Origin: a virus
IMG/VR virus record: IMGVR_UViG_3300049473_000108
Coordinates: 1-57,880 of that record
Length of the DNA: 57,880 nucleotides
Strand: one strand, 5' to 3'
Position 1 is the first letter of the stretch. Each line of letters begins with the position of its first letter. This document shows, in pieces, positions 1,272 through 47,807 of this stretch. The notes below the pieces were generated by a model. It saw nothing but the letters and a program-made list of their open reading frames with translations, did no database searches and was not told where the DNA came from. Made by a program: the position numbers and the translations under genes.

Positions 1272-4200
1272 TTATCCTCCTGTTGCCCTTCGTTTTAGAC
1301 TTTCTGAGGCTGCTTCACTCTTGATTATATTTACTCCTTTCTTGGCCACGGTTGACCAGGAAATGGGAATTCCTTTTTCTCCTAGCTGTCTTTGCCTGTC
1401 GTTATATCTCTCTATCCTATCTTTGAGCGCAAAAAAAGAACCGCCTTCTTTTTTCAGCCTCACCCATTCTTCGACAAACTCATCAGTCATTTTCTTCTTA
1501 GTCGGATAGGTCGTTGCCGTATAAAGGCCCAGATTCCGGGTTATTGTGTCAAAACCATCTATCTCGCCTTGCAGCATGGCGAGGAAGTTCTGGACCTGAA
1601 CGGGCGTAACGCCTCTCAGTTGATTGATTATGTAGGAAGGAACCTGTGACGGGGATATGGCCCACCCTATGCGTCCGCTAGGCGCAACGGTTTTCCAGCG
1701 CAGTCTTCCGCCTTTCCGCTCGCCGAGTTTGTGTTCTTTCGTGGTTGTGAGATAAAGTCCCTTATCATCAAAACCCAGTATCTCATCAAGCGTCGTGAAT
1801 CTCTGTCCCTTCCAATCAGTCCCCGTAAATGCCTCAAATATGGTCCTGAACAATACAGATCCCTTGTTTTTCATGGATCTAAAGGGATGTATTATAAATT
1901 TCAGGGGATCAGTAAAATGTCCAAAAAGGTTAAAATATTTGCGCGCTTCTGTCTTACCACCAAGCAGCTTGTAAATCGGTGTCACGTCTATATACAGCCA
2001 CCTGAAGTACCCAGCTTTCCAGGCCTTTTTGAATCGACTGGTGAAATCATCATCTTTATCCAACAACGAAAGCAGGAAGTTCGTAAGAAGCGTAGCCGTA
2101 AGCCCTTTCGTTATAACTGACGCCCAGAATCTACGGTAAAGCCCAGTCTTTGCTTTATCGCCCGATTTGAAGGACTTCCACATCGTATTGACATTACTTT
2201 CGGTCCAGTCGGGTGCCAATGCAAACAGCCTATAAAGGTGTTGCATGGTTGGATCGCGCTTCATCCTTCCGAGATGCAGACCACCAAAGTCATCGTTTAC
2301 CAGCTCAGCTACCATTTTTGCCCGTTCCTCGGGCTGCATCTCAGGATGCTCTTTCAGTGCATTCCTATACTCGATAAGCGCAGCCTGCGCTTTCAAGCCT
2401 GCTCCGAAATTTCGGAAAAGGAAATCTGCCTGTCGCCGTCTGAGTTCGTTGGCCCAGTCCACAAATTCCTTCCCATACTTACTCTTGCTCAATACGCGCC
2501 CGAAAATGGTATCTTCCTCCTCAAGGATGGACTCTTCCCAGTCTTGCATCCTGCCCAGTGTGAGCCCATTTCTGACAAGTAATTCGATCTCAGGTCTCAT
2601 CTCTTTGATGGCTTTGAGGCCTTCCTTGTACATCCTGAACGGATTCCATTCATAAACGGTCTTGTGCCTAGTCCCGAACAGATAGGAGCGCATGAAGGCT
2701 TGGTGGTGGAAAAATGATGTAAGGAGAATCGTAGATTTAAACACGGCATTGTATTTAGTCAGGGCATCGATTAGCGAGATACCCCCGATTTCCCATCTGC
2801 CTTTCAGCTTCGAGACTCCGAGAATCTTATTCAACTGCTTGGCGACCTCGTCAGGAGCATAAAGCTTCTGCCGTTTCCAAATCGTTCTTCTCTCTTCTAT
2901 TCGGAATTGCCCCGGCTTATCCTGACCCTGTATGAAAAGGTTTGCCTCCTCTTCGCTTTCAAACAGCTTCGTTGCCCTCGTATTTCCTTCCTTTATGGCT
3001 CCCCAAAAAGTCATAACTCGGAAGTCCCTGCCGTATGTACGGGCCTTTCCGCCTTTGATGTAACCCACTGGCGCCCAATAGGTGAAATTCGGATGTTCTA
3101 TCCCGGTATATCCTTCAAGCTGTTTGTCTGAGATGACAGGTTCCCCAGTATCTCTCCATTCGAGCGTTCGCAATTCCTTGACCAGAGCTCTATCTTCAAC
3201 AGTCCGCGCAATTTCATTTTTCAGAAGTTCCAGGTTATTTGACGCCCCAGTGACAAGCAGTTCATAGCCATGCGCCTGACCTTCAAGTATGGTCTCAAAG
3301 ACGCGATGCTTTGCATGTCGGCTGCTCGTCTTGAATTTCTGAAGGACGTCAGTCGAGAGTTTTTTCGGTATCTTCCATGCCCTTGCAACATAGTTGTCTA
3401 TGGTATTAAAAATGACGTTGTTCCCCAGGGCGCGTACTCCCGTTTTTTCATATTCCTCTGAGATGTACTTGGCTATGGCCCTCAGCCCAGGTTCCTGTGC
3501 AACTCTGCGCGTCAGATCTACGATCCGCTTTTGCTCATCAGTCAGATCCCAATAATATTCTTCAAGGTGCTCAGGATTTCTTTTCAAATCGAGGTAGATG
3601 TGAATGGCTTGGTCAATATCCCTTGCCTCGGCATCATACCGCTTTTTACCTAAGGCATCCTTTATAGCATCCTGTATCTTGGAGCATTGAATACTATTAA
3701 CTTGAACGGCCCAATCCTTATTACCGAACCAATCGTCTTTCGCGGTCTCAAAATTCGAGGGCTCCTTGGGCCTGTCTTCTGCCTTTGGGATGTCTCTATA
3801 GTATTTACGGTCATATTCCTTTCCTGCCTTTGCCACTTCTTCCTTGTCGGCTATTTCCTTTAGGGCTGTTTTCACATACTGGGCGGCCCATGCGCTCATT
3901 TCCTCGGGCGTTTCGGGAGGTTTTACCGTAATTGCCCCTGTTTCTTCTTTCAACAGCTTCGTGGCATCCCTCCATACCCGCATCATCAGGCCCCTGATTT
4001 TTTCCCAGGCATTAGCAAACGCGCTTTTCATCCTGCGGGCGAAATCAGAGTATTTTCTATGCCCCTCCCTGATGAAGTCTTTACCAACGGTCACGAGATT
4101 ATCGTATATCGTGCCTTCTTTGGCTTTTGCAAAAGAAATGGCCCCGGTTTCATCCTGAAGTTGGTCAGATAGGATCTTGACGAGGGTGGAGGAAGGTTTC

Positions 4201-7200
4201 CTTGCAGGTTTCCCCCTTACTTCCTTAAGTTGCCAGCGCACCGTCTTTGGCTCTCTATCTCTTATTTTTTCGGCTTCCATCAACGTAGCAACTTGCTCAG
4301 CAGTTTTAGGTGCGGCCTTTTGCGATTTCTCCTCCAGATAGGAGGCCTGCCAATCTAGCCATTCGGAGTCAGATAATTCTGACTTATCTACTATTTCGTG
4401 TGGCTCGGATTTTAGGACGTAGGATTCGTGTTTTTGCCTGCTGAGGCTCCTGGTTAAATAGCGGTCCTCAGTTTCATCGATAATTTGAGCTACGCCTGAT
4501 CTTGACCTTATAAGTTTTGACTGGTGAAGTGCTTTTCTGGCAGGTTCTTTTTTTGCGGGGGGCTTTGAGATTTCCTCGAAATAGTCTCTCAGCTCTTGGT
4601 AGGTTGTTTCCTCGTCTGGATACGTCTGTGCAGAAATTTCAGCATCAAGGCCTTTCTCAGCTCTTGCAATCTGCTTGTCGGTATAGCCTTGGTTTCTGAG
4701 TTCTTGTCGGGCATGTTCGATAGCTCCTTCAATGAATTCCTTTTCCGTTGTGGGTTCAGCAGGAATTCTTGTTATTCTCCCCTTTATATCATTTTCCTGA
4801 GCAGATTTCAAGTCTCTTTCTATAAGTTCAAGGAGATGGTCTTCGTCTCTTACATCGAATCCCTGCTCTCTTGCATCTCTCACCACCACATCAAGGGATT
4901 TGCCGTTTTTCCTTAGGAATCCTGGGGGAATGCCCCTCACAAGTTTCTTTTTGCCTCTGGCATCCGTGGTGTAGATAATGTCCCTTATTTCGCCTGACAG
5001 GATTGTGGGATTAACTCCTCCCGCTGCGGCAATCCAGGGAACTAGGTATTCCTGTTGTGCGGCCTTTTTTCTGCGTGTCTCACGCATCGCCATCTCCGCC
5101 TCAGCCGCCTTTGCCCTCGCCTCTTCGATTGTCACACCGGGACCCTCCATCTCAGGCTTAGCGTGTTCCCATTTTCCGTATTTTGTCACGGGAAAGCCTT
5201 TCTTTCCTCCCTCAAAGAAAGCAAGGACTGCCCCGCTTCGGACCCTTGCAACTCTGTCTATTTTGCCAGTGGTAACTTCCCCCGTTTTCGCATTGGTATA
5301 TTTATACCAGCCGCCTTTTGTTGGCCTTACAGAGATTTCTTTAGCTTCTCTAGGGGATACTTCAGCCTTCGCTGGCTTTTCTTCCTTGACCCTTACCTCA
5401 GGTATTGCTTTTGCCTTTTCTTCGATTCTAGGGGGTATTTTGGCCCTTTCTTTGGCATAGGCAATCATTTCCCTTTGCAACTCAGGATTTTCCCGCCACA
5501 TTCGTTTCCATTCGGTAGTGCCGGGGGTGAGGTCAACATATGGCTTTGCAGCCGCTTTTCTTGCGGCCCTTTTTATTGCCACTCGTTCTCTGGCTTCTTT
5601 CACCGATATCGAAGTTCTTCTGTTCAACTCATCATTAACTGCCACCATTCTTCGGGCATCTTCGGGAGATAGATGCTCAATACCAGCTTCTCCAAATCTT
5701 TGGCGCTCGGGATGGAGTCTATTTAATCGCTCTGTTTCTGCTGCAATTTTCTTATCAAATGCAGCAGATTCGTTCTGCAATTCTTGAATATTCATCTCCC
5801 ACGGTTCTTTTTCCGCTGTGGGCTTGAGCTCAGGATATTCCTCCAAGATCTTAGCGGGAACTGGTTTGCCTTCGGAGAGGGCTTGTTGGACAAATCTTTG
5901 ATGCTCAAATTCTAAGACTGCTTCTGGTGTTTTAAATGTTTTTGTTTTATCTAAAGGCGTAACATATACAACTTTACCCGCGAATTTTCGTGTTTCAACG
6001 GCAATTTGAGTAGGCTTCGCTTTAAACCATTCCTCTCTCGTCATCTCCCATGGCTGCTTTTCTGCTTTGGGTTCAGGTTTTTCAACCTTGACCCTTGCTA
6101 GTTCTGACGGAGGCGGTACCTTCTCTTCAGCAACGACTTCGGGGACCTTTGCAATTTCCTCAGCCTCAGCTTTTGGCCTAATCCCTGTAGGGCCTGCCTC
6201 TACTTCTTCCCATTCCTCGGGCAAAGGCTGATATCGTGCCATTTCCTCAGCTTCCGCTCCGCGTGCTTCCTCTTCTGCGAGCTGCTGACGCAACAATCTG
6301 CGGCCTTCCTCGGACCTTCGCAGTTCCTCTGCTTGGCCAAGCTGCTCCTCAAGGACACGTGCAGATTCCTGGGCTGGCTTGGTAAGGGGGCCTACAACCT
6401 CGGTGAGTTCTATGACCTCCTCTGGCAGAGTTGCCGCTAACCTGTCAATCTCTTTGCCTACGGCATTATCCCCAGGGAAATGTTCCGCCCTTAATCGTTC
6501 AAGCATCGGACGGGTTAGTGCGCCTGCCTTGACATCTTTTTCAACCTTGCTGATAAGTCCTGACTGCTCAGGGGTGAGTGCTTCGAGCAGGTCAATGGGG
6601 GCTTCTTCTTCCACCTCGGGCGCTGTTGGGATTGCTTCTTCCTTGGCTCTTGCCCCTATGTCATAGGCTCGGCTTCCGATTGCGCCTAGCCCTCCTGTAA
6701 CGGTTGTAAGCAGCGTTGTTTGGGGATACTGTTCCTTGGCAGCTTGTGCCAAGCGTCCAAGTCTCGTTTCAGGAACGGGTTTACGCAATCCGGCTTCTGC
6801 CTCGATTGCAGCCTGCCCATATTGAGTGACGGTTTCCTGAGCCTGCTCGCCCACTTGCATTGCCCCGTACTTAGAACCAACGGTTGCCAAGGTGCGTGCG
6901 AACCGGTTTCTTATTGCGGGAATCTTGAGGAATTTAAGAATCGGCAGTTTCCCTACGGGTAGCCTGATAATCTTTAAACCTGCAGCCTGGCCTATCGCCT
7001 CTGGTATTGCCTCCCATAAGCCATAATCTCTGGCCTTGGCCTCGTATTTTTCTCGTATGGAATCCCATTCATTCTCAGTGATTTCCCTTTTTTGATTTTT
7101 GAGACATTCCTGGCTAACCAAATCATAGAGGTCCGATACGAACTGGTCTTTAGCCATACGGTATGCGGCTACTCCAGATGCGGCAGTCCCCGCCGTCCAG

Positions 7201-7880
7201 GCTAAAGCTCTCGCACCTGGCACAGGGACTGCAGCGGTAGGGATGCCAACACCTAAACCCGCAAGCATACTTGTTACGGTGTAGCCAAGTTGTTGGGGGA
7301 GTCGAGCAACGTCTTCAACTGTGATGCCGGGAGCAACCAAGTTTTTAGTTCCGTGTTCTTTTACGAACGCCTCCGAACGCCTTTTGGTGCTTTCAATAAA
7401 TTCATCGGACCAACCTTTCTCTAGGTCGATATCACCTGCTCGAATAGCGGACATGACAGAAGCGGCCATTTCCTCTGGCACACGTAATAAGGCTCTGCCT
7501 AGTGTCTTAAATCCTTTGCCTACGGCATATTCTTTTTCCTGTGCCGCAGCACGCATACCCATAAGCCTTGCCTCTTCAGGCCAGATTTTTTCGTATTCTT
7601 CGGGCGGGGTTTCCTCCCATTCCGGCCCAAGCTCTGGAGGTTTTGCTGGTTGAATTGCGGGCTGTGGTTGCTGAGCAATAAGTCCCATTTGCTGCACAGA
7701 AGGCGTAGCTGGCGCTGTTCGCCTCAGAGGCTGTTGGGCTGGCTTTTCGGCTACACTCGGCTCAAGCCCGAGGATTTCCCTTTGGGCCTCCTCCGGGGTA
7801 AATTCCTCCCATTCAGGCCCTAGACTCTCCGGGGCGGGGATGAATCGTCTATCTCGTGGTGTTAATCCAAGTCCGTTCAT
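1272..7880 (-). CDS. Giant internal virion / polyvalent protein, 2202 aa
   Basis: The largest protein of the phage. The N-terminus (to about residue 115) is Glu/Pro-rich and carries the motif LGPEWEE twice. A Gly/Ala-rich hydrophobic stretch follows (about 195-245, GYTVTSMLAGLGVGIP). A long Glu/Ala/Lys-rich, probably coiled-coil and disordered region runs to about 1400. A globular C-terminal part (about 1500-2150) contains several hydrophobic helices, such as FKSTILLTSFFHHQAF. Very large proteins of this make-up sit last among the internal virion genes of short-tailed phages and are ejected with the DNA; many carry 'large polyvalent protein' domains. I see no convincing transglycosylase or protease motif. 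Its ATG overlaps the upstream gene by four bases. Confidence 0.7.
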   Translation of the reverse strand: MNGLGLTPRDRRFIPAPESLGPEWEEFTPEEAQREILGLEPSVAEKPAQQPLRRTAPATPSVQQMGLIAQQPQPAIQPAKPPELGPEWEETPPEEYEKIWPEEARLMGMRAAAQEKEYAVGKGFKTLGRALLRVPEEMAASVMSAIRAGDIDLEKGWSDEFIESTKRRSEAFVKEHGTKNLVAPGITVEDVARLPQQLGYTVTSMLAGLGVGIPTAAVPVPGARALAWTAGTAASGVAAYRMAKDQFVSDLYDLVSQECLKNQKREITENEWDSIREKYEAKARDYGLWEAIPEAIGQAAGLKIIRLPVGKLPILKFLKIPAIRNRFARTLATVGSKYGAMQVGEQAQETVTQYGQAAIEAEAGLRKPVPETRLGRLAQAAKEQYPQTTLLTTVTGGLGAIGSRAYDIGARAKEEAIPTAPEVEEEAPIDLLEALTPEQSGLISKVEKDVKAGALTRPMLERLRAEHFPGDNAVGKEIDRLAATLPEEVIELTEVVGPLTKPAQESARVLEEQLGQAEELRRSEEGRRLLRQQLAEEEARGAEAEEMARYQPLPEEWEEVEAGPTGIRPKAEAEEIAKVPEVVAEEKVPPPSELARVKVEKPEPKAEKQPWEMTREEWFKAKPTQIAVETRKFAGKVVYVTPLDKTKTFKTPEAVLEFEHQRFVQQALSEGKPVPAKILEEYPELKPTAEKEPWEMNIQELQNESAAFDKKIAAETERLNRLHPERQRFGEAGIEHLSPEDARRMVAVNDELNRRTSISVKEARERVAIKRAARKAAAKPYVDLTPGTTEWKRMWRENPELQREMIAYAKERAKIPPRIEEKAKAIPEVRVKEEKPAKAEVSPREAKEISVRPTKGGWYKYTNAKTGEVTTGKIDRVARVRSGAVLAFFEGGKKGFPVTKYGKWEHAKPEMEGPGVTIEEARAKAAEAEMAMRETRRKKAAQQEYLVPWIAAAGGVNPTILSGEIRDIIYTTDARGKKKLVRGIPPGFLRKNGKSLDVVVRDAREQGFDVRDEDHLLELIERDLKSAQENDIKGRITRIPAEPTTEKEFIEGAIEHARQELRNQGYTDKQIARAEKGLDAEISAQTYPDEETTYQELRDYFEEISKPPAKKEPARKALHQSKLIRSRSGVAQIIDETEDRYLTRSLSRQKHESYVLKSEPHEIVDKSELSDSEWLDWQASYLEEKSQKAAPKTAEQVATLMEAEKIRDREPKTVRWQLKEVRGKPARKPSSTLVKILSDQLQDETGAISFAKAKEGTIYDNLVTVGKDFIREGHRKYSDFARRMKSAFANAWEKIRGLMMRVWRDATKLLKEETGAITVKPPETPEEMSAWAAQYVKTALKEIADKEEVAKAGKEYDRKYYRDIPKAEDRPKEPSNFETAKDDWFGNKDWAVQVNSIQCSKIQDAIKDALGKKRYDAEARDIDQAIHIYLDLKRNPEHLEEYYWDLTDEQKRIVDLTRRVAQEPGLRAIAKYISEEYEKTGVRALGNNVIFNTIDNYVARAWKIPKKLSTDVLQKFKTSSRHAKHRVFETILEGQAHGYELLVTGASNNLELLKNEIARTVEDRALVKELRTLEWRDTGEPVISDKQLEGYTGIEHPNFTYWAPVGYIKGGKARTYGRDFRVMTFWGAIKEGNTRATKLFESEEEANLFIQGQDKPGQFRIEERRTIWKRQKLYAPDEVAKQLNKILGVSKLKGRWEIGGISLIDALTKYNAVFKSTILLTSFFHHQAFMRSYLFGTRHKTVYEWNPFRMYKEGLKAIKEMRPEIELLVRNGLTLGRMQDWEESILEEEDTIFGRVLSKSKYGKEFVDWANELRRRQADFLFRNFGAGLKAQAALIEYRNALKEHPEMQPEERAKMVAELVNDDFGGLHLGRMKRDPTMQHLYRLFALAPDWTESNVNTMWKSFKSGDKAKTGLYRRFWASVITKGLTATLLTNFLLSLLDKDDDFTSRFKKAWKAGYFRWLYIDVTPIYKLLGGKTEARKYFNLFGHFTDPLKFIIHPFRSMKNKGSVLFRTIFEAFTGTDWKGQRFTTLDEILGFDDKGLYLTTTKEHKLGERKGGRLRWKTVAPSGRIGWAISPSQVPSYIINQLRGVTPVQVQNFLAMLQGEIDGFDTITRNLGLYTATTYPTKKKMTDEFVEEWVRLKKEGGSFFALKDRIERYNDRQRQLGEKGIPISWSTVAKKGVNIIKSEAASESLKRRATGG

Positions 7881-12823: not shown

Positions 12824-14674
12824 CTATTCCTCCGCCGCCTGTATAAGCTCATCTATGGAAGTGGCTATTGCCATCAGATCAATGTCCGAAGTGCCAACTA
12901 CCTCTAGTTCTATATCCTTCCCTGTGTAACCTCCCGGCATCCTGAATATCTCATCGGATTGTATGTTCTTGCTCCATTTCAGAACGCCATCCACATAAAG
13001 CCTGAAATCCACCTCATCATCTGCCACAATCCTGCCCGCATTGAAATTGAAGGGCGAAAAGAGATGAAATACCTTCGATTTCCAAGTATAGGTCAGCTCT
13101 GTTGCGGCTTCTTCCCACGTATAAACATCATAGGAACCAGTATCGGGGTCCTCTATTAGCACATAAAGGTAATCCCCTACCGTGATTACGTCATAAAACG
13201 TTTTCCCGCTGATGGAAAAGTCGATAATCCTCATTTTCTGCATGTTGAGGATAAAACCCGTGGAGGCCCCGCTAAAGAAGGCAAAGTATTTATCATCGTA
13301 GAAAGCGCTCATCAGATTGGCGAGACTCTTGGCTTGCCATTGTTCCTTCGTGAAAAGTTCCCTCGTAAGCAGCGTTCCTCCCTCGCGGCTGACCATAAAG
13401 AGTCCATCGTCAGACGGATAAATAACTCCGCCCTCGGTCGAGACTACGCTTTTAGCTCCTCCAACGCAGGGGCGCTCATAAGGCAAATCCATAAGAGTCA
13501 TGCTTGAGGGGTCCGTGCCCGTAGCATAGTAAGGTACGCCATCCGTTACGGCGACGAGTGTTTCCCCAAAGTGACCCACGCCGACAATATCGTGCCTAGC
13601 CTGGAGAGCGTAACCGTCCGGCCATGCGTAAGGATAGCCAGGCACAGAAAGATAGACCTCGCTGCCCTTGAAACCCGCAAGGATGTTATTGACAAAGAGG
13701 TGCAATCCGGCGAGTTCCTCAGGAGGAGGTTCCCAATCCTCGGTCGCTATTGCCTCGAGGAGCTCATCATCTTCCCGTTTGTCATCGAACCCGTTAGCTA
13801 TGGCATCCTCGATCAGGCAGTCATCGAGGTCTTCTTCCCAATAATCGCCCTCGTTTGGGGCATGTTCGGGCGGAGGAGTGAATGCCTGAATACATTTGTA
13901 TGTTTTGCTCCCATAAGTCACTCGGTCGTCCAGGGAGTAAGCAGTATTTGCCTCATATTCAGGGATGTTATCGGGAGGGTAAGGCACAAGCTGGTACTCC
14001 GCAAGGCTGGTGCCTGTGTTTAGCCGGTAGACTCTAATATGCGTTGCGTTCACCATATCGGCTGGCGGATTTGCAAACCCGCTTAGATGAATGTATTCAT
14101 CCTCCTGCAAATCAACAACATCAGAGGGCGGTGATGGTGCGGATTCCTCCCCCCATCCCGTCACGTAAGTCCAGACATAAGAAATTGACTCCTGGACAAT
14201 GCCATTTCCTTCGCCTTCCCGCACGACTTTCAAAGGCACAATGGGCGCAGGCACACCCAATCTGTAACTTGTAGTGGGCCAGGTGTAAGAAGGTCCTTCT
14301 GTTGCCATATCATAGTTAGTCTGCTTGGGCACGCCATCGCCCGTGAAATAAATGCGAGGCGTGACATCCGGGATGAAGGATTTCACTACATCCACATCTT
14401 CGCCCTTCCAGTTGAGCCATTTATCCACAAGCTTATAGATTGTCTTGGCACCCGCTATAATAACCTGGTCTCCACTGGCAGTTACTTTATCCGAGCCTGA
14501 ATCAATGACGTCCTGGCCCCCTACGTTGAACTCGAACTCCAAATCTCTGAGCGGCTGAATCATGCCGCGCTCGAGTTCGCAGTTCTCAGCAATCTGGGCC
14601 TGATTTTCAGCTAGCAATTTGGGGGAAGTCTTTGGTATCGTCCCCTCAAAATTGGATATTCGGATTACAGGCAC
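12824..14674 (-). CDS. Tail nozzle / propeller protein with an embedded carbohydrate-binding module
   Basis: A 616-residue protein. The N-terminus (NFEGTIPKTSPKLLAENQAQ, then AENCELERGMIQPL) is typical of the tail nozzle or stabilization proteins of short-tailed phages, which form beta-propellers. A FN3-like stretch follows (YVWTYVTGWGEESAPSPPSD). At about 230-275 there is a chitin-binding-type module (AYSLDDRVTYGSKTYKCIQA, then the closing NEGDYWEE), the CBM5/12 pattern. Propeller-like repeats fill the rest. The protein probably closes the tail end and may touch cell-surface glycans. Confidence 0.7.
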   Translation of the reverse strand: MPVIRISNFEGTIPKTSPKLLAENQAQIAENCELERGMIQPLRDLEFEFNVGGQDVIDSGSDKVTASGDQVIIAGAKTIYKLVDKWLNWKGEDVDVVKSFIPDVTPRIYFTGDGVPKQTNYDMATEGPSYTWPTTSYRLGVPAPIVPLKVVREGEGNGIVQESISYVWTYVTGWGEESAPSPPSDVVDLQEDEYIHLSGFANPPADMVNATHIRVYRLNTGTSLAEYQLVPYPPDNIPEYEANTAYSLDDRVTYGSKTYKCIQAFTPPPEHAPNEGDYWEEDLDDCLIEDAIANGFDDKREDDELLEAIATEDWEPPPEELAGLHLFVNNILAGFKGSEVYLSVPGYPYAWPDGYALQARHDIVGVGHFGETLVAVTDGVPYYATGTDPSSMTLMDLPYERPCVGGAKSVVSTEGGVIYPSDDGLFMVSREGGTLLTRELFTKEQWQAKSLANLMSAFYDDKYFAFFSGASTGFILNMQKMRIIDFSISGKTFYDVITVGDYLYVLIEDPDTGSYDVYTWEEAATELTYTWKSKVFHLFSPFNFNAGRIVADDEVDFRLYVDGVLKWSKNIQSDEIFRMPGGYTGKDIELEVVGTSDIDLMAIATSIDELIQAAEE

Positions 14675-20192: not shown

Positions 20193-21758
20193 TTACTTCT
20201 TTACGTACAGGTCCACGAGCGCCTCGGTTTTCAGGCACTTGTACCCATATACGTTCAAGCCTCTCACGATTGTACCGAAGGTGCTTTCCGAACGCAGGCT
20301 TTCCATGTTGGACATTTGAGCGGCAAAACAGAGGGCGCTCTTATGTCCGCAAAGAATGTGCCAGCATGTGTCGTTCCCATCGGTAACGCTGGTCAGGAGA
20401 TTGGAGATATACAGGGTAAGCCTGTCTATCATCCCGATCCGCCCGTTTCTCAGGGTGCTCGTCCCGTCTCCGGTAAGCGAGGCGTCCTTGAGATCGGACT
20501 TCTTGATCATTCCAGCCATCCAGGGAGGAATGACCATCCAGCGACTTTCCTCTGGCACGTTTTGCTCATCCAGAACCGAACCGCAATCCACCATAACGTC
20601 GAGCACATTGGTTTTGGTCAGCAAAACTGCGCTTCCCGTTGTCCCCATGTTGTAGCTTGAGGACTTGGCCCCTGCGGTTGTCCCTTTATTGCTGGCGTGT
20701 GCGTCCGCATAGACATCAGCCAAGAAACCGGTATCAATGGTTATTTTCATCTGCTGGCCGGCATCATCTGACCATCTGTCCATCAAGGGGATGTCTGACT
20801 GATGCTCGTCGATATCATCGCAAATGAAGTTGAAATACTTGGCCTTGTCTATCACCAGCTCCGTGGTTTCCTTCTCGGGATTCTCGATAACAAGGGACTG
20901 ACCCTTGACGTAATCCCGAATGGTAATGTCGGGAGTCTGGCGGATAATGACCTTATCGCCTTGGTTCTTAATCTCTCCAGCGTAGTCCGTGTTTGAGATG
21001 GCGGCGATAACGGTGGCCGCATAGAACTTGACAAGCAACTTTGAACTCCATATTTCCTGACAGCATTTATGCTGTTTGGACTATTGCATCAGCTTTCAAT
21101 ATTTTTATAATATTGCGAACTGCCACCTCGCTTAGTCTCTGTGGGTCGGCTTTCATAGCGGATAGTTCCTTTTTGGCGCACAATCGAGCAGCATCAATGT
21201 TCTCATATCCATGCTGCTTAATTTGCTTGCCTCTGAGATTATCAATTACCCAGATAAGAAATTTTGCCTGTTCCTTTTTTAAATACATATGGTTCACGAT
21301 GTTTTGAAGAAAAGGTCGTAAGCGTCTATTTTCAAGTTGCCAATAATAGGCATCATGCCAATTGGGATTGTGGCGTCTCGTTGCACACCATACGTTCCCG
21401 CCATGATTTGCTTGAAGGATATCCAGAATGAATTTACAGGTTTCAGAAAGTGCTATTCTTAATCTTGGACAGATATAGATTGAGACTGATATCTCTCCAC
21501 TAACCTTTTCATATTTGCTTCTTTCAATCTGGAAATCCAAACACCCTTCTCCATCTACTAATCCTGCTATGTACTTCCAAGGTAATCGCTTCATGGATTC
21601 TATCTCCGAACTGCATTTTACCTTTACCGTTCCCTCTGGTTCTGGCACCCAAAGTCCAGTTCCAGTTATTCAGAGGTGGTTTTACATCCCCGAAATTAAA
21701 GGTCAGGGATAAACGTCCCACTATATTGCGGATATCCCGCTGCAACTCCTACTGCCAT
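20193..21758 (-). CDS. Major capsid protein, split by a group I intron: join(21705..21758, 20193..21056)
   Basis: Exon 1 (ATG 21758, AGGAGG six bases upstream) encodes MAVGVAAGYPQYSGTFIP and runs into a stop two codons later. Exon 2 starts EIWSSKLLVKFYAATVIAAI. Joined after codon 18 they give a 305-residue coat protein with the familiar phage segment FIPEIWS..LLVKFY and NTDYAGEIKNQGDKVIIRQT. It lies between scaffold and decoration genes. The splice sites are set by the intron pairings described at 21057-21704. Without splicing only a 20-residue peptide would be made from this start; a TTG-initiated fragment from 21038 is the fallback reading. Confidence 0.85.
21057..21704 (-). ncRNA. Group I self-splicing intron in the major capsid gene (648 nt)
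   Basis: The 5' exon ends in U and the intron ends in G, as the class requires. P1: exon UAUCCCU pairs with intron GGGGAUG (intron positions 14-20) with the hallmark terminal U.G. P10: exon 2 GAAAU pairs with AUUUC directly before it. P7: GACTA in CACAGAGACTAAG (21137-21133) pairs with TAGTC in AATAGTCC (21083-21079), matching the conserved R and S elements. P8: CAATATT/AATATTG (21115-21097). A six-base-pair P9-type hairpin lies at 21075-21060. The 5' region also has CCTCTG/CAGAGG. P3-P6 were not resolved. All this is read from sequence. Confidence 0.88.
21067..21594 (-). CDS. LAGLIDADG homing endonuclease encoded in the capsid intron
   Basis: A 175-residue protein from the ATG at 21594 (GGAG upstream). 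Residues 9-17 read AGLVDGEGC, a LAGLIDADG motif with the acidic catalytic residue. Only one motif is visible, so it would act as a homodimer or carry a degenerate second copy. It cleaves intronless capsid alleles so that the intron is copied in. The stop lies ten bases from the 3' splice site, and the last ~25 codons are also the P7-P8-P9 part of the ribozyme, so one stretch of DNA serves both protein and RNA. Confidence 0.82.
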   Translation of the reverse strand: MKRLPWKYIAGLVDGEGCLDFQIERSKYEKVSGEISVSIYICPRLRIALSETCKFILDILQANHGGNVWCATRRHNPNWHDAYYWQLENRRLRPFLQNIVNHMYLKKEQAKFLIWVIDNLRGKQIKQHGYENIDAARLCAKKELSAMKADPQRLSEVAVRNIIKILKADAIVQTA

Positions 21759-21780
21759 AACTTACCTCCTAAACAGGGGA

Positions 21781-46394: not shown

Positions 46395-47807
46395 ATGACA
46401 AAAGAACTAATAGTACAGGAAAAAATCAATACGGTAAGGAAGTACATCAATCAACCTTATATTCTGGATCAGCTCAAGGCAGCATTACCCTCTTTTCTTA
46501 CGCCTGCACGGTTCCTGCGTGTGTTTTTCACAGCCATGCTCAGGAATCCCGCCCTTTTGGATTGCAGTAAAGAAAGTATGCTCAGCGCCATGATCGAAAG
46601 CGCTCAGCTCGGTCTCGAACCTATATTACGGAAAGCTGCTTTAGTGCCTTACGGAAAAGAAGTGCAATTCCAGCCTATGTATGGCGGATTAATAGATTTG
46701 GCGAGAAGAACGGGCCGAATAAAAATCACTGGGCATGTAGTATATGAAAAGGATGATTTCAATATCGAATACGGAACCCAAGATCGCCTTCTTCATAAGC
46801 CTTATATGGGAAATGATCCAGGTGTGATGATAGGAGCGTATACAGTATGGACTTTCGAGGATGGATTCCAAACCTTTCTTTTTATGCCTGCACATGAAAT
46901 CTACAAGGTGCGAGCCACATCTAAAGCTTGGCAAAAAGCACAGAGAGAGCCTAAGAATCCAAATGCCCAGGAAACGCCCTGGATTCAGTGGGAAGATCAG
47001 CAATGGGTTAAAACGGTGCTCAAAAGGCACAGCAAGCTTCAGCCATGTTCTATCGAAATGGAAAGAGCCGTGGAATTGGATAACCGCGTGGAAGCTGGAT
47101 TATCTCAGACGGATATACTCGGGAGATTGGGTGAAACTGTAACACCGGAAAAGGAGCCAGAATTGCCGGATATAGAAAAGCTGATTGAGGATTTCGACAA
47201 AGCAATGGCAGATATGGACACAGAAAATGTCAATGCCTTTCTGGACTTGGTTGCAGCTACCCAGGAAGATATGACAAGAGACCAAGTTAAAATCGCCGCC
47301 ATGGTGCAGGGGATAGACGGATTTCGCGAATCCTATATGAAATGGCCTGGATATAAGCCGAAGGAAGAGGCAGGAAGGGATAATGAAGATCCCATCCGCA
47401 AGCTCTATTGGAACCTTAAAGGCTCAGGTTTCAGAAAGTTCGTAATGGATCATCAAAGCGCCATTCTTAGCATGGCCCAGGAATACCAGGATGAGATCAG
47501 GCAAAAATGGGAGCGGATATTCCCTAAGGAACTGTATCCGATCGGCAAGATTGAGACTGGAGATGAGATTATACCAGGAACACCGCCGGGAAGTCCCATT
47601 GTCCAAGAATCCGAAGATGAAAGAATACTAAAGCTTGTCGATGGCGCAGAGATTGAGGATCACCTGGGTGGAAAGGCAATATTCGTAAACTGCCCAAACG
47701 AGGCAAAGGGCGAGAAGCGGACGGTAAAGTGGTGCAACAAGAACTGCCGCGAGCGGAAAGGTTGCCCGACATGGAGCAAATACGATGCAGAGAATCTAAA
47801 GGAATGA
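46395..47807 (+). CDS. recT: RecT-family single-strand annealing protein with extended C-terminus, 470 aa
   Basis: The N-terminal 220 residues match RecT: MLSAMIESAQLGLEPILRKA, then ALVPYGKEVQFQPMYGGLID, the well-known core. Typical RecT is about 270-300 residues; here an additional ~200-residue tail ends in a Cys cluster (CPNEAKGEKRTVKWCNKNCR, then ERKGCP) that could bind zinc. It anneals ssDNA in phage recombination/replication with the nuclease at 44290. AGGAGG before the ATG. Confidence 0.85.
   Translation: MTKELIVQEKINTVRKYINQPYILDQLKAALPSFLTPARFLRVFFTAMLRNPALLDCSKESMLSAMIESAQLGLEPILRKAALVPYGKEVQFQPMYGGLIDLARRTGRIKITGHVVYEKDDFNIEYGTQDRLLHKPYMGNDPGVMIGAYTVWTFEDGFQTFLFMPAHEIYKVRATSKAWQKAQREPKNPNAQETPWIQWEDQQWVKTVLKRHSKLQPCSIEMERAVELDNRVEAGLSQTDILGRLGETVTPEKEPELPDIEKLIEDFDKAMADMDTENVNAFLDLVAATQEDMTRDQVKIAAMVQGIDGFRESYMKWPGYKPKEEAGRDNEDPIRKLYWNLKGSGFRKFVMDHQSAILSMAQEYQDEIRQKWERIFPKELYPIGKIETGDEIIPGTPPGSPIVQESEDERILKLVDGAEIEDHLGGKAIFVNCPNEAKGEKRTVKWCNKNCRERKGCPTWSKYDAENLKE

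Follow-up and report, generated by a model that had tools for sequence, protein, structure and literature searches.

Results

A Capsid Gene in Two Parts

The locus described here lies in the window, by which we mean the whole 57,880-nt stretch of DNA that was analysed (positions 1 to 57,880 of IMG/VR virus record IMGVR_UViG_3300049473_000108). On its minus strand is a major capsid gene whose exon 1 (21758-21705) is separated from exon 2 (21056-20193) by an insertion (21704-21057).

21765-21770, minus strand: capsid-gene Shine-Dalgarno sequence AGGAGG, lying six bases ahead of the ATG at 21758 (sequence)
21705-21758, minus strand: capsid exon 1, 18 codons, ending TTT ATC CCT (F I P); uninterrupted homologues share this N-terminus
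20193-21056, minus strand: capsid exon 2, from E19 to the stop

From the ATG at 21758, exon 1 reads MAVGVAAGYPQYSGTFIP, its last base being 21705. The codons that follow are GAC CTT TAA, placing an in-frame stop at the third codon of the insertion, and the capsid frame resumes at 21056 as EIWSSKLLVKFY, to end at the stop at 20193. The opening of the frame behind a perfect Shine-Dalgarno sequence, the stop shortly inside the insertion and the 648-nt gap had all been noted in the original prediction and are borne out. That prediction also held that joining Pro18 to Glu19 (...GTFIP^EIWSSK...) restores a coat protein, and it does: the joined protein of 305 amino acids matches the profile of PHROG 267, "major head protein," with an E value of 2.4e-60, which places it in that family. 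The predicted junction peptide of the spliced capsid is YSGTFIPEIWSSK, and the predicted junction in the spliced RNA is ACGTTTATCCCT^GAAATATGGAGT.

Empty sites were sought by scanning IMG/VR with exon 2, which yielded 80 capsid loci. Most of those that reach the N-terminus, dozens of intronless homologues, encode a protein that is unbroken across the junction; one example, L004, is 71% identical and reads MAINVAAGTPQYSGTFIPEVWAGKILVKFY. Because these relatives read straight across the junction, the boundaries of the insertion are exact. In another relative, L017, the codon boundary that is split in the window's capsid gene is likewise occupied by an intron.

Anatomy of the Insertion

The insertion can be folded, element by element, as a group I intron.

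21057-21704, minus strand: group I intron, 648 nt, ending in G (comparative and covariance-model support)
21696-21698, minus strand: in-frame UAA stop in the P1 loop (sequence)
21692-21696, minus strand: P10 5′ strand AUUUC, pairing with exon 2 GAAAU (21056-21052)
21685-21691, minus strand: internal guide sequence GGGGAUG, forming P1 with exon 1 UAUCCCU (21711-21705), U.G at the splice site
21673-21679, minus strand: P3 5′ strand CCACCUC, pairing with GAGGUGG (21129-21123)
21636-21665, minus strand: P4, CUGG (21665-21662) with CCAG (21639-21636), P5 inside (comparative alignment)
21627-21634, minus strand: P6 5′ strand GGG-AA-CGG, 21634-21632 and 21629-21627 paired with 21145-21143 and 21150-21147
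21143-21150, minus strand: P6 3′ strand GCCG-A-CCC, pairing with the P6 5′ strand
21133-21137, minus strand: P7 5′ strand GACUA, R element CACAGAGACUA, pairing with UAGUC (21083-21079)
21123-21129, minus strand: P3 3′ strand GAGGUGG, pairing with CCACCUC (21679-21673)
21090-21122, minus strand: P8 stem-loop (comparative alignment)
21079-21083, minus strand: P7 3′ strand UAGUC, S element, pairing with GACUA (21137-21133)
21061-21074, minus strand: P9 hairpin CAGCAUAAAUGCUG (comparative alignment)
21057, minus strand: terminal intron G (omega G) (sequence)

P1 with its U.G pair, P10, P7 within the R and S elements, P8 and the P9 hairpin had been predicted, and each is present where it was placed. 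That reading was correct as far as it went; it was incomplete in lacking the pairings of P3 and P6, the homing endonuclease and the capsid-targeted family, all described here. The pairing of CCACCUC with GAGGUGG in P3 creates the P3/P7 pseudoknot of group I introns, and the features by which the group is recognised are all in place: a P1 with U.G and a guide that matches the exon, a core of P3-P8 and P4-P6 with the pseudoknot, a terminal G and P10. As for peripheral features relevant to subgroup, inspection by eye finds no P2 in the window's intron, and a J7/3 of 3 nt without P7.1 or P7.2. A group II intron was considered and rejected, there being no group II match and the group I core being complete.

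One might propose that a once-working intron has become inactive and that the capsid is now made in N-terminally truncated form from the TTG at 21038, which has a GGAG about 7 nt upstream and from which the exon 2 frame stays open for 281 amino acids. That GGAG, however, is merely the Trp-Ser codons of a conserved motif, and a capsid begun at the TTG would lack the FIPEIW segment, some form of which is retained in nearly all relatives. All core helices and the endonuclease frame are intact, moreover, and the exon junction is exact. We regard decay of this kind as very improbable; judged from its sequence, the intron is most likely active and very probably splices itself out.

Comparative and Covariance Support

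A set of 40 distinct related introns allowed the fold to be examined comparatively, and P1, P3, P6, P8 and P9 covary across it. For P3, the 3′ halves were located by the R motif alone and P3 itself was not used; 278 of 280 cells are paired (shuffles: mean 225, maximum 242), with sixteen different sequence combinations. P6a is paired in 160 of 160 cells and has three covarying pairs with double changes, and P10 is paired in 120 of 128, against 105 in shuffles. In a 24-sequence alignment from which the window was left out, P7, P8 and P9 together are 97.5% paired (P7 and P8 each 100%, the rates for P7, as for P1, being partly built in since these two helices were used in locating the elements); 9 of the 15 pairs show double changes, and the covariation score is 0.634, compared with 0.172 after shuffling and at most 0.097 in slid controls. 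P1 and P4 are 97.7% paired, though most of their columns are invariant. The guide in P1 follows changes in the exon, as in UAUUCCU/GGGAAUG, UGUCCCU/GGGGACA and UUUGGUU/GGCCAAA.

Covariance models of the family were trained on other introns, with the window excluded. The 5′-half model matches the window at 21713-21626 (79 bits, E 3.6e-17) and the 3′-half model at 21151-21051 (60 bits, E 4.6e-11), both searches being made in 129 kb, and both matches fall exactly on the predicted halves of the intron. Together with the 40 related introns and the dozens of intronless homologues, these models uphold the predicted identity of the element as a group I intron and its exact splice sites.

The original prediction had proposed a search with the Rfam group I model as a check and had named the lack of a covariance match as evidence against itself. 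Taken nominally, the outcome goes against it: the best match of RF00028 in the window is 15.1 bits at 21292-21059 (E 0.44), beneath the gathering cut-off of 50. The same model finds no match in ten related loci, at least nine of which contain sister introns, and it scores 66 bits on L076 and 64 bits on L033, where other introns interrupt the capsid genes of relatives and served as positive controls. Because it falls below threshold on the window and on the sister loci alike, we conclude that the family is group I by architecture and yet is overlooked by RF00028.

All 32 intron-bearing genes have CCT as the proline codon at the P^E splice site, against 5 of 38 intronless ones (Fisher p 5e-15), a contrast that is partly built in, since the 32 were picked by a script seeking U at the exon end; intronless relatives mostly use CCG. 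Among introns at this site, none was seen with a proline codon other than CCT. CCT is what the U.G splice-site pair needs, and the preference fits a requirement on the RNA, on the homing target or on both.

A stop occurs within the first three intron codons in 31 of the 32 introns at the P^E site, and in-frame stops of this kind have been interpreted as a means of preventing ribosomes from entering the intron while it folds (PMC3984707). The lengths of the insertions at this site span all three classes modulo 3. Both observations bear on the idea of an intein or an inserted in-frame domain, as the open reading frame within the insertion might suggest, or of a gene expressed by recoding. The stop that closes the exon 1 frame two codons past the junction, mirrored in the same-site elements, is at odds with it, as are the mixed lengths and the covariation of the RNA, and Pfam gives no intein match; we find any such explanation scarcely credible.

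The Intron-Encoded Endonuclease

Within the group I intron lies a gene for a putative homing endonuclease.

21604-21607, minus strand: Shine-Dalgarno sequence GGAG of the endonuclease gene (sequence)
21067-21594, minus strand: single-motif LAGLIDADG homing endonuclease, 175 amino acids (profile, motif, structure model)

The protein begins MKRLPWKYIAGLVDGEGC. Its match to Pfam LAGLIDADG_1 is 22.3 bits, 0.8 below the cut-off of 23.1; its one LAGLIDADG motif, GLVDGEG, is of the single-motif I-CreI type, and the enzyme is presumably homodimeric. An AlphaFold model (pLDDT 90.7) has I-CvuI and I-CreI as its best matches in the PDB (Foldseek, E 6.5e-9). I-CreI, I-CvuI and I-MsoI belong to organelle group I introns hosted by chloroplast rRNA genes. 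The window's endonuclease shares their single-motif fold (Foldseek E 6.5e-9 to 1e-6) but differs in sequence, at about 20% identity, in its presumed target, a phage capsid gene, and in that the 3′ part of its gene doubles as ribozyme core. The frame starts in the loop of P6, crosses the 3′ strand of P6, P7, the 3′ strand of P3 and P8, and enters P9. The R element writes the C-terminal motif of the protein, DPQRLSE or DPHRLSE, so that the same bases serve both the catalytic core and the protein. The endonuclease is present in all 40 related introns, and it is under purifying selection (dN/dS 0.06-0.25 for pairs with non-zero dN and measurable dS).

A Family Found in Capsid Genes

A DNA pattern drawn from the intron core found 73 stretches in IMG/VR, and in nearly all of the first exons listed the intron is directly preceded by F[IV]P or a close variation on it. 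Scanning with an endonuclease profile brought up 123 relatives; 80 of them, from environmental viral DNA, were taken for analysis of their loci. The downstream exon is a capsid gene by HMM in 79 of the 80; the last has a capsid first exon with the same FIP end. The insertions lie within the codons for F-[IV]-P^E-[IV]-W or 6-10 nt farther, the variant sites being 6 nt downstream (EV^W) or about 10 nt downstream (W-S), and the guides of the W-S introns are changed to match. In all loci examined here, the lineage is confined to the capsid genes of diverse tailed phages.

This breadth speaks to the concern that the split gene, known from a single environmental virus contig, might be an assembly chimera. 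The same arrangement recurs in the 80 loci found by profile, with many distinct introns, some of them near-identical across several contigs, and L017 has its intron at the same site; such an artefact would be extraordinary, and we take the interruption to be genuine.

The capsids that host these introns can be no more than about 20-25% identical to that of the window, while the endonucleases are 36-64% identical. Between the window and L081 the endonucleases are 64% identical and the capsids 41%; with L154 the order is reversed, at 43% and 54%. Trees of the two proteins reject each other (AU p 1e-139 and 3e-7, exact values that are unreliable because the alignment of distant capsids is imperfect), and this incongruence indicates that the intron moves between lineages.

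Searched for in 84,980 bacterial and archaeal genomes, the core pattern had no credible match. Two stretches that it did find there were dismissed as ordinary read-through coding sequence, a Poribacteria protein spelling LNNW..TRGN at the motif. The endonuclease search of 50,697 phage records returned distant LAGLIDADG proteins only, those looked at being located within methylase genes or adjacent to genes for ThyX or portal proteins, and blastn with the window's 101-nt 3′ core found no match among the phage records. The lineage is known here from environmental virus contigs only.

Some capsid genes of this group hold other insertions. In L083, at 2884-4400, two intron 3′ ends stand in series (3′-half model matches at 3396-3468 and 4327-4400) along with a second LAGLIDADG frame, an arrangement of tandem or nested introns at almost one site; L096, L120 and L147 each have two adjoining weak matches to the 3′-half model, possibly duplicated intron ends. 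L072 has a further intron, with a double-motif LAGLIDADG frame, displaced downstream by a few codons in its capsid gene, at about 2035-3003 (3′-half model E 5e-4). Farther still, near NTDY^EGE, genes of this capsid family in L033, L035 and L076 are split by a different group I intron (about 1900-3000), and that of L076 seems to hold an HNH endonuclease frame.

The Rest of the Window

On the plus strand, the window encodes a phage integrase (49021-50145; Pfam E 1e-24) and a RecT protein (46395-47807; E 4e-36), and the phage is therefore probably temperate. The minus strand has a frame of 2202 amino acids without a PHROG match (1272-7880) and a 616-amino-acid protein with a CBM_5_12 carbohydrate-binding module (12824-14674), perhaps a tail or host-surface protein.

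Discussion

We put at roughly 94% the probability that a mobile group I intron splits the major capsid gene behind its codon 18, with splicing and homing inferred from its organization. In the capsid mRNA, the intron would fold into P1, P3-P8 with the P3/P7 pseudoknot, P9 and P10. Attack by guanosine at the CCU^ junction would then lead to ligation of the exons, Pro18 being followed by Glu19 in a restored capsid frame, and the stop just inside the intron would halt translation of any unspliced message before ribosomes reached the ribozyme. At the level of DNA, the endonuclease probably cuts intronless capsid genes where the DNA specifies the conserved FIPE[IV]W motif; a copy of the intron would then be introduced as the break is repaired. 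We speculate, more tentatively, that the lineage jumps between distant tailed phages by way of this DNA, and that, in co-infections, its endonuclease harms rivals without the intron by damaging their capsid gene. This wider scenario is possible, though we would sooner bet against it than for it.

A capsid gene that depends on splicing was originally described as uncommon, a statement that needs to be tempered. In mycobacteriophage LittleE, splicing of an intron in the major capsid gene has been proven by RT-PCR and N-terminal sequencing; there, too, a phage major capsid gene contains an intron that is group I-like and has a LAGLIDADG-like endonuclease frame, but the intron is about 819 nt long, the endonuclease is on the opposite strand and the capsid gene is of the HK97/Omega type (PMC3706429). 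Group I introns also occur in core genes of crAss-like phages, including the capsid gene in the Delta and Zeta groups; these differ in numbering several per gene, and the parts of that report consulted do not describe one family associated with a particular capsid motif (PMC7886860). In the open-access literature, to which our search was confined, we found no capsid-restricted intron lineage at the FIPE[IV]W motif, and the capsid specialist appears to be undescribed there.

A phage intron endonuclease is known to act in conflict between phages. The enzyme encoded in the PhiPA3 gp210 intron nicks PhiKZ gp178 and blocks the progeny of the co-infecting phage; it is an HNH enzyme for which interference has been shown, whereas that of the window is a LAGLIDADG protein for which homing alone would be proposed from its sequence (PMC11620839).

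Since the family escapes the standard Rfam model and its first exons span only about 14-30 codons, environmental capsid genes of this kind are liable to be annotated in truncated form or missed. Production of the protein that the virion uses most heavily would rest on RNA splicing, and phages with scarcely similar capsid proteins have apparently been colonised by one intron family at the same handful of capsid codons. The natural collection of homing sites and empty sites offers a test set for how intron endonucleases keep to a protein motif as its coding sequence diverges, and the same set of sites could be used to test intron endonucleases as weapons in phage competition.
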